This document shows positions 7,696 to 13,847 of a stretch of DNA of 30,709 bases, piece after piece. Every line of letters begins with the position of its first letter. Positions within the stretch are counted from its first letter, which is position 1. Where the stretch lies: IMG/VR virus record IMGVR_UViG_3300021962_000425, positions 1-30,709 of that record, one strand, 5' to 3'. The notes under the pieces are model-generated. The model was not told where the DNA came from and ran no database searches. It was given only the letters and a program-made list of their open reading frames with translations. The DNA is from a virus. Position numbers and translations under genes: made by a program.

Positions 7696-7738
7696 TGTAG
7701 GTGTAAGGATATAAACCATATAAACAAAGGGGTATTTC

Positions 7739-8035
7739 ATGAATCAAAGAGTTCGAGTTCCGAAGAGGTTCATCGAGGACCATGCAAGCCGTGACTTGCT
7801 CGACCTCGACGCTGTGAAGGTTGGCGAAACCAAAACCCACTACTTCGTCGAGTTGTCGGCGGAGCAGGCTTTCGAGTTGTGGAGCGATGCGAACCACTAC
7901 AGTTGCAAAGAGATGGCGGGCGAGTACATCGAGTCATGCGGTCTCGGCTTTGTGTCGAGTGCTCGAGCAACGAGGCAGGCGCTCGACGGTTTCATGAATT
8001 TTGTGAATCGTTGCGACGCTTTGAGGGGTAACTAG
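7739..8035 (+). CDS. Hypothetical early protein
   Basis: A 98-residue soluble protein (MNQRVRVPKRFIEDH...), not recognised. The ATG follows AAAGGGG with a spacer of about seven bases, a strong site. It is the first gene of the rightward early operon. The last base of its TAG stop is the first base of the hammerhead ribozyme, so its mRNA would be cut 21 bases after the stop. A basic N-terminus and a helical C-terminal half (ATRQALDGFMNFVNRCDAL) are visible; nothing indicates a specific activity. Confidence 0.75.
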   Translation: MNQRVRVPKRFIEDHASRDLLDLDAVKVGETKTHYFVELSAEQAFELWSDANHYSCKEMAGEYIESCGLGFVSSARATRQALDGFMNFVNRCDALRGN

Positions 8036-8084
8036 GACGAAACACCGCGAGGTGTCCGAGGGTATCGCTCTCGCTGACGAGTCC
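8035..8084 (+). ncRNA. Type II hammerhead ribozyme
   Basis: All core bases of a hammerhead are present in the order of the type II permutation. Stem II 3' strand GGAC (8035-8038); GAAA (8039-8042); stem III ACACC/GGTGT closed by a GCGA tetraloop (8042-8055); cleavage-site C (8056, in GTC). Stem I CGAGGG/CTCTCG with one G-T pair and loop TATCG (8057-8073); CTGACGA, fitting CUGANGA (8074-8080); stem II 5' strand GTCC (8081-8084), fully complementary to GGAC. Predicted cleavage is after C8056, leaving a 5'-hydroxyl leader for the SprT-like gene 56 bases downstream. Stem II is only four base pairs and open, so activity may be modest. The element lies exactly in the intercistronic gap. Confidence 0.88.
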
Positions 8085-8111
8085 GTCAGAATTTTAAAGA
8101 TAGGGGAATGA

Positions 8112-9033: not shown

Positions 9034-9411
9034 ATGAAGAAAGCAATCAGAATAACAACCACGGGAGAAATAACAGAGTTAGACCTCACCACAAACTCAC
9101 TCAGGCAACTGCAAGAGGCGGTAGGTGGACTAGTGCAGGCTCTCGACCTCACCGAAGCGGTGACGATGTGGTGCAACGAAGAAGGCAAGATGCTCAAGCA
9201 ACCTCACAACCCATACGCTCAATATTTTTGGGATAAGGTCTACGGGGCACACACAGACTACATCGTGGGCGACATCGTGCTGACTGGTGGCACAGACAGC
9301 AACGGAGAAACCGAAGGACTCACCGAGTCGCAAGTTGAAACATTCGAATGGCTCGCCTTTAAAGTTCGAGAATTTGTAGAACCAAACATGACGGTGTTTG
9401 AAAGCGAGTAA
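9034..9411 (+). CDS. DUF3846 family protein
   Basis: A 125-residue acidic protein. It resembles the DUF3846 pattern: an N-terminal strand pair, a LQEAVGGLVQALDL helix (about 26-39), then a strand with WCNEEGKML (46-54), the family's NEEGK signature, then IVGDIVLTGG (about 75-84). The function of the family is unknown; it is common among early genes of actinobacterial phages and plasmids. The start is supported by AAAGGGG eight bases upstream and its own promoter. A second copy of the three-way-junction RNA follows the stop by a few bases. Confidence 0.75.
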   Translation: MKKAIRITTTGEITELDLTTNSLRQLQEAVGGLVQALDLTEAVTMWCNEEGKMLKQPHNPYAQYFWDKVYGAHTDYIVGDIVLTGGTDSNGETEGLTESQVETFEWLAFKVREFVEPNMTVFESE

Positions 9412-13515: not shown

Positions 13516-13571
13516 GGATTTGCCCTGCTCCGCAGGTATCCCCTTCCCTAGCGTCGTAGCGGGGCAAGTCC
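13516..13571. terminator. Probable bidirectional terminator hairpin
   Basis: GGATTTGCCC (13516-13525) pairs with GGGCAAGTCC (13562-13571): ten pairs, one G-T. A smaller hairpin CCTGC-tcc-GCAGG (13524-13536) lies inside. It sits at the convergence of the rightward early and leftward recombination operons and includes the last codons and stop of the WhiB gene. T-tracts are weak on both sides. Confidence 0.5.
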
Positions 13572-13847
13572 ATTTAACTGACCGCCCGTACCACCATGAC
13601 GACGGTACTCTCGCTCTCTCGGGGTTTTACCACCCCACACACCGTACCTTCTTATATCATTCGTTTCGCATTCCATAGCATAAGCCAAACATTTCTCAGC
13701 AACAGGGCAACGCTCACAAATCTTCACCGCTTCATCATAAATACCAGCAGTAGACACACCGACAGCAGTCTCAGGGAAGAAGATAGTAGTTTTCATTCCG
13801 CGACACAGCGCGTCATCGAACCAATCTAAATGTTTAAGGTCAATCAT
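13548..13847 (-). CDS. WhiB-family Fe-S transcription factor
   Basis: 99 residues with the four cluster Cys residues of the Wbl family: C15, C44, C47 and C53 (CRG...CERCPVAEKC). The GVWGG turn (69-73) and a basic tail (KTPREREYRR) for DNA or sigma-factor contact follow. Wbl proteins are confined to actinobacteria and their phages, bind a 4Fe-4S cluster and act with the primary sigma factor. Last gene of the leftward recombination operon; overlaps the coiled-coil gene by eight bases. In phages such proteins can alter host septation or superinfection (known for mycophage TM4); the role here is inferred. Confidence 0.9.
   Translation of the reverse strand: MIDLKHLDWFDDALCRGMKTTIFFPETAVGVSTAGIYDEAVKICERCPVAEKCLAYAMECETNDIRRYGVWGGKTPREREYRRHGGTGGQLNGLAPLRR

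Follow-up and report, generated by a model that had tools for sequence, protein, structure and literature searches.

The window, by which the whole 30,709-nucleotide stretch of viral DNA analysed here is meant (IMG/VR record IMGVR_UViG_3300021962_000425), carries a type II hammerhead ribozyme between a small gene, gene A, and the gene for a putative metallopeptidase. The features of the locus, all on the plus strand, are as follows.

7722–7732, plus strand: AAACAAAGGGG, a ribosome-binding-type sequence before gene A and the left boundary of a gene cassette, from comparison with locus L001
7739–8035, plus strand: gene A, 98 amino acids, of no known family; its TAG stop (8033–8035) shares base 8035 with stem II
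8034, plus strand: A directly 5' of stem II, the middle base of the TAG stop, kept across ribozymes
8035–8084, plus strand: type II hammerhead ribozyme, from direct reading, a strict descriptor and covariance models
8035–8038, plus strand: 5' strand of stem II, GGAC, which pairs with GTCC at 8081–8084
8039–8041, plus strand: core GAA (G12 A13 A14), invariant in alignment A1
8042–8055, plus strand: stem III hairpin (ACACC 8042–8046, loop GCGA 8047–8050, GGTGT 8051–8055; closing pair A8042–T8055), with compensatory changes in relatives
8056, plus strand: predicted cleavage-site nucleotide C17 (H17), from its position in the hammerhead consensus
8057–8073, plus strand: stem I hairpin (CGAGGG 8057–8062, loop TATCG 8063–8067, CTCTCG 8068–8073; one G–T pair, G8061–T8069), all six pairs of which covary across phages
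8074–8080, plus strand: core CTGACGA, with C8078 as N7, the one position of it that varies in alignment A1
8074–8089, plus strand: alternative hairpin CTGACG-AGTC-CGTCAG, –8.2 kcal/mol, with N7:N' covariation
8096–8106, plus strand: AAAGATAGGGG, the ribosome-binding-type sequence of the downstream gene and right boundary of the cassette, followed by AATGAATGAAACAA as in L001
8112–8888, plus strand: downstream gene, 258 amino acids, a putative metallopeptidase with a HEATH (HExxH) motif, phrog_6361

All elements of the hammerhead core are present: CUGANGA, GAA, the A15.1–U16.1 pair and H17. Direct reading and the covariance model give the same permutation, type II, in which stems I and III are closed and stem II is open. 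The first-pass annotation had assigned the core bases, the three stems and C8056 as the predicted cleavage site; this description is correct to the base, and covariation and the covariance model strongly support a type II hammerhead. Its observation that stem II begins on the last base of the upstream stop codon is confirmed by direct reading. Cleavage is predicted to leave a 2',3'-cyclic phosphate end at C8056.

According to the text of Perreault et al. 2011 (PMC3088659), a pseudoknot occurs in most type II hammerheads and in about 40% of all hammerheads, other contacts being made otherwise. In the window, the sequence directly following stem II shows no sign of a 4-bp pseudoknot. The sequence UAUC at 8063–8066, in the stem I loop, could pair with GAUA at 8099–8102; this loop–tail pseudoknot is not conserved in L002 or L007 and was rejected. 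Of 458 distinct ribozymes among the matches listed, 436 have an A immediately before stem II, and A8034 is likely to be a tertiary-contact base. The invariant loop U and the 5' A suggest a non-Watson–Crick contact.

The strict descriptor has a single match in the window and none in 1000 Markov-1 randomised windows. A covariance model built from 23 ribozyme rows of other phages, excluding this phage group, scores the window ribozyme at 62.5 bits (E 3.3e-22, a rough value because calibrations were short). With relatives included the score is 66.1 bits, and the next match in the window reaches 12.2 bits. A search with the Rfam hammerhead II model, the check proposed in the first-pass annotation, failed to support it: Hammerhead_II (RF02276) gives no match in the window even at E 10. 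The phage relatives score 26.1–33.6 bits with the same model, also below its cut-off (gathering threshold) of 37 bits, so the miss reflects a gap in the model and is not counter-evidence. That threshold is a property of one library model and does not define the ribozyme class; the Rfam type II model undercounts phage forms of the hammerhead. A Hammerhead_1 match in the window (16.4 bits) was set aside as a partial match to the core.

Close relatives were fetched via the downstream protein, without reference to RNA. The same motif precedes the downstream gene in L002–L007, L009 and L010; its core is identical there and the stems vary by matched substitutions, with compensatory changes in all three. 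Free variation of core bases among relatives, raised beforehand as a possible objection to a hammerhead, is not what is found. L006 has a gene A 98% identical to that of the window, and even so the two loci differ by compensatory changes in stems II and III: for stem II, GACC/GGTC in L006 and in close relatives stands against GGAC/GTCC in the window, and one stem III pair is G–C in L006 and A–T in the window.

Wider scans used a pattern that fixed the core and part of stem II and left stems I and III unrequired; for viral sequences the totals are lower bounds (at least the numbers given) and the sets are samples. Both unrequired stems are present in 111 of 150 viral matches listed, compared with 30 of 7500 shuffled interiors. 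The scan of cellular genomes returned almost only chance matches, with both stems in 4 of the 120 listed. Where the core has the window's fixed spacing, all 15 pairs form in 88 of 90 distinct matches listed. In an alignment of 34 ribozymes 100% of cells are paired, a figure that partly reflects the choice of rows from the fixed-spacing matches (88/90 being the unselected one). Double changes occur in 12 of the 15 pairs, and covariation is 0.747, against 0.163 for shuffled and at most 0.104 for slid alignments.

Gene A and the ribozyme behave as a removable cassette. The leader at L001, an empty site, ends in AAACAAAGGGG and joins AATGAATGAAACAA directly, without gene A and without a ribozyme. 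In the window this junction is opened by gene A plus ribozyme and closes again where AAAGATAGGGG meets AATGAATGAAACAA. Between the leader that they share and the downstream gene, close relatives carry 0, 1 or 2 small genes, and each small gene whose 3' end was resolved is followed by one ribozyme; L001, L008 and L011 have no ribozyme. Homologues of gene A are followed next by a hammerhead in six of six loci (L004, L005, L006, L357, L382 and L576), some of which are possibly one contig fetched twice. Because a hammerhead stands after all gene A homologues fetched and none stands in the empty site, the ribozyme travels with the small upstream gene and is gained and lost together with it. At L382:6926–6975 the hammerhead has a stem I unlike those behind the other gene A copies, although the gene before it is a homologue with 95% identity to gene A over 86 residues; this suggests that one gene can also exchange the ribozyme that follows it.

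The downstream gene had been called SprT-like. This goes further than the matches of its 258-residue protein support: the protein has just the HExxH motif, its one family match is to phrog_6361 (function unknown), and the searches returned no Pfam family and no solved structure of a relative. The description of the two genes as early stands as a deduction from gene orientation alone. The same rightward block includes a gene for a DUF3846 protein (9034–9411, plus strand). A WhiB-like transcription factor gene (PF02467) lies at 13548–13847 on the minus strand, and with distant matches to Streptomyces phages it hints at an actinobacterial host. Actinoplanes phage phiAsp2 encodes a distant homologue of the downstream protein (28%) and has no hammerhead in the stretch read; no cultured phage with both the downstream protein and the ribozyme was found.

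The same motif occurs in hundreds of viral contigs, where its position relative to genes is regular. Among the matches listed, the upstream stop codon ends between –10 and +4 nt from stem II in 366 of 439 distinct viral ribozymes with an assignable upstream frame; in an earlier, smaller set the figures were 173 of 229, compared with 289 of 6160 random positions. The commonest arrangement is that of the window, a TAG sharing its G with stem II (131 cases among the matches listed). Overlap of the stop codon with stem II is a rule across the group and favours a constraint. A terminating ribosome might block folding of the ribozyme. The overlap could equally reflect compaction, with the conserved A 5' of stem II reused in the stop codon.

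Ribozymes lie on one strand only in 396 of 396 loci, and neighbouring ribozymes are spaced by a median of about 450 nt, about one gene length (both among the matches listed). The most per contig are found at L272:2223–7239, with eleven type II hammerheads in 5 kb, on one strand and at approximately gene-length spacing. Three cultured Streptomyces phages also carry them, as unannotated covariance-model matches in gene-dense arms: about 5 in Wentworth (L581), about 11 in Salutena (L582) and about 9 in Sentinel (L584), counted in the stretches read. In Sentinel two of the matches overlap an annotated small gene, gp73 (1905–2063), which may be a false gene call. Wentworth has a further hammerhead-like match with a long stem III (L581:850–923), rejected by the strict descriptor and scored at 38.2 bits by the covariance model. 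A blastn comparison of two multi-ribozyme contigs with isolates gave no match.

Position N7 has long been treated as a free position of the hammerhead core. In the window, N7 (C8078) pairs with G8085 in the hairpin at 8074–8089, and this hairpin is mutually exclusive with the catalytic core and stem II. None of 200 shuffles folds as well, and the predicted fold of 8030–8095 comprises stems I and III and the alternative hairpin, not the hammerhead. Viral contigs were scanned with a pattern that allowed any base at N7 and at N', the tail base. For the form GTCC-N'TCAG, the 61 distinct ribozymes listed have N7:N' as T:A in 47, C:G in 11, T:G in 2 and T:T in 1 (p 2e-10 for covariation). The exact tail register is found in 93 stretches and in 7 when shifted by one base (matches listed). 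A second register places part of TCAG inside stem II. There, among the matches listed, GGTC-AG (stem II GACC/GGTC) has C at N7 in 70 and T in 29, and GATC-AG (stem II GATC/GATC) has T in 69 and C in 16, a difference with p 1e-12. Mismatched forms in this register are C:A (16) and A:A (3) in the GATC class and T:G (29) in the GACC class, again among matches listed. A scan that did not require the AG tail listed 80 contigs, 68 of them already returned by the AG-requiring scan. Without the AG tail the predominance of C at N7 is lost (2 C, 12 T and 2 G among the matches listed).

Relatedness was considered as the cause of this covariation and rejected: clustering leaves the N7:N' counts standing, and a T:A and a C:G copy occur side by side within L257 and again within L271. 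L253 and L286 have stem I as in the window and differ at N7/N' by the double change T:A versus C:G. A contact of N7 inside the active fold is also unlikely. The partner lies in two places, after stem II or at the second base of stem II, and the two arrangements share nothing but the register of the hairpin; that both partner positions obey one rule speaks for hairpin pairing and against such a contact. Nor does the hairpin resemble a terminator: it has no T run directly behind it, and a terminator scan finds none there. A first, tail-neutral sample has a Watson–Crick N7:N' pair in 32 of 132 matches listed; for the pooled set, the choice of patterns biases the share of ribozymes that have the second hairpin. 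No TCAG tail is present in the cultured Streptomyces phages rich in hammerheads, whose stem II is mostly GGC/GCC, so a lock of this kind would not be needed everywhere. The first-pass annotation had overlooked this hairpin, as well as the gene-plus-ribozyme cassette and the failure of the Rfam model.

The best explanation as a whole, to which a probability of roughly 80% is given, is a type II hammerhead at the 3' end of a mobile gene cassette that would cleave, part, refold and lock. (i) The early transcript would fold at 8035–8084 and cut after C8056. (ii) The upstream mRNA would then end in a 2',3'-cyclic phosphate, one base after the stem III hairpin and shortly past the gene A stop, with this tetraloop hairpin capping its 3' end. 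(iii) The downstream mRNA would begin with a 5'-hydroxyl and a fully paired stem I. (iv) Since only the 4-bp stem II joins the cleavage products, the pieces would part. (v) In the freed 3' piece, the core and stem II strand would refold into the hairpin at 8074–8089, which would stack directly upon stem I; re-joining would be blocked and the cut irreversible. (vi) Two back-to-back hairpins would then stand before an unstructured ribosome-binding site. As in this phage group each small gene inserted before the metallopeptidase-like gene brings one ribozyme, the operon would be cut gene by gene. By all sequence evidence, the RNA of 8035–8084 would cut itself and separate the messages of the neighbouring genes. 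This separation, already proposed in the first-pass annotation, is supported by the ribozyme's position here and in relatives, with the cleavage itself a prediction. Cleavage in this phage probably takes place, and protection of the resulting ends is its likely consequence. For the particular order of events, cleavage first and locking second, the odds are about even.

It is on this order that the energies weigh against the best explanation. With the alternative hairpin the full-length RNA has –22.9 kcal/mol, and the hammerhead fold of 8035–8084 alone has –17.2 kcal/mol. Full-length nearest-neighbour energies, which take no account of tertiary contacts, thus favour the alternative hairpin, which could suppress cleavage rather than come after it. 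A tentative alternative, less probable than the reading just given, accepts the ribozyme and makes the hairpin a pre-cleavage off-switch, in which the tail traps the core once it is transcribed. Cutting would be confined to a brief interval during transcription, or to RNA whose stem II is clear of ribosomes, and would report transcription speed or translation state. The full-length minimum free-energy structure, which has the hairpin and not the hammerhead, speaks for such a switch, as does stop-codon anchoring, by which a terminating ribosome would cover the 5' strand of stem II. Across the class, however, the median difference between the full minimum free energy and the hammerhead fold is –1.5 kcal/mol with the hairpin and –0.6 kcal/mol without, near balance in a nearest-neighbour calculation that leaves out tertiary contacts. 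A simple trap would moreover defeat a ribozyme that is kept intact in hundreds of phages. Lock and off-switch make opposite predictions for tail mutants. More broadly, this widespread class of phage hammerheads could be bistable by design, a proposition that the evidence leaves evenly poised. The downstream pairing of N7 would then be a built-in switch or ratchet that dismantles the core, and the cutting of early mRNA would either be one-way or depend on how the upstream gene is transcribed or translated.

A working hammerhead might also serve mainly to make gene cassettes exchangeable, each with its own stop and RNA-processing site and with no regulation. Different upstream genes stand before the same downstream gene, each with a ribozyme, the empty site in L001 is exact, and the TAG stop is built from the conserved A and the first G of stem II in the 131 listed cases. 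This possibility, doubtful as the main role, is compatible with the cleave-and-lock explanation and not exclusive of it, but it leaves the N7:N' covariation unexplained. That the element only resembles a hammerhead, and serves the downstream gene as a pair of leader hairpins or as a protein-binding RNA, is very improbable. Stem I and the alternative hairpin do form a compact 5' leader, but such an RNA would have no need of the invariant GAA, A–T, C17 and CTGANGA core, nor of covariation in stems II and III. Chance resemblance is already refuted and a decayed, inactive copy is scarcely credible, for although Rfam gives no match, the absence of matches from 1000 random windows, an E of 3e-22 under an independent model and compensatory changes in near relatives stand against both.

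Hammerheads of viroids and satellites compete with another fold of the same strand. Their alternative is a genome-length fold of a circular RNA; that of the window is a local hairpin of 5–6 bp made from the core itself. The nearest known systems are the type II hammerheads (RF02276; PMC3088659), which the window matches in permutation, with stem II open, and in core. The text of Perreault et al. describes them as clustered around single genes in prophages; some cleave in vitro, those of A. tumefaciens cut in vivo in E. coli, and the role proposed is the cutting of long phage RNAs to gene length (PMC3088659). As in the window and its kin, the hammerheads described there are intergenic in phage or prophage operons, with several per genome flanking single genes. 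The prophage clusters of Agrobacterium, Azorhizobium and C. scindens share the gene-by-gene arrangement but involve other genes (text of PMC3088659). Compared with RF02276, the window and its phage kin fall below threshold or are missed; their stem II has 4 bp, and the stem I loop is compact, with 5 nt of the form U-NNN-G. Further differences from the type II ribozymes described in the text of PMC3088659 are that no 4-bp pseudoknot is seen immediately behind stem II and that the competing hairpin CUGAN..N'UCAG is present. No mention of this hairpin, of stop-codon anchoring or of cassette gain and loss was found in the text of that paper, and the papers searched likewise do not mention the hairpin. 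That type II hammerheads flank phage genes has been known since 2011, and the window ribozyme is a further example. What is added here is stop-codon anchoring, the cassette whose empty site is exact and, most of all, the competing hairpin, a conserved element from which the effects of mutations in the tail can be predicted. Anchoring just after the stop codon, one ribozyme per imported gene, this hairpin and the cultured Streptomyces phages with several matches each provide concrete handles on the purpose that hammerheads serve in phages.
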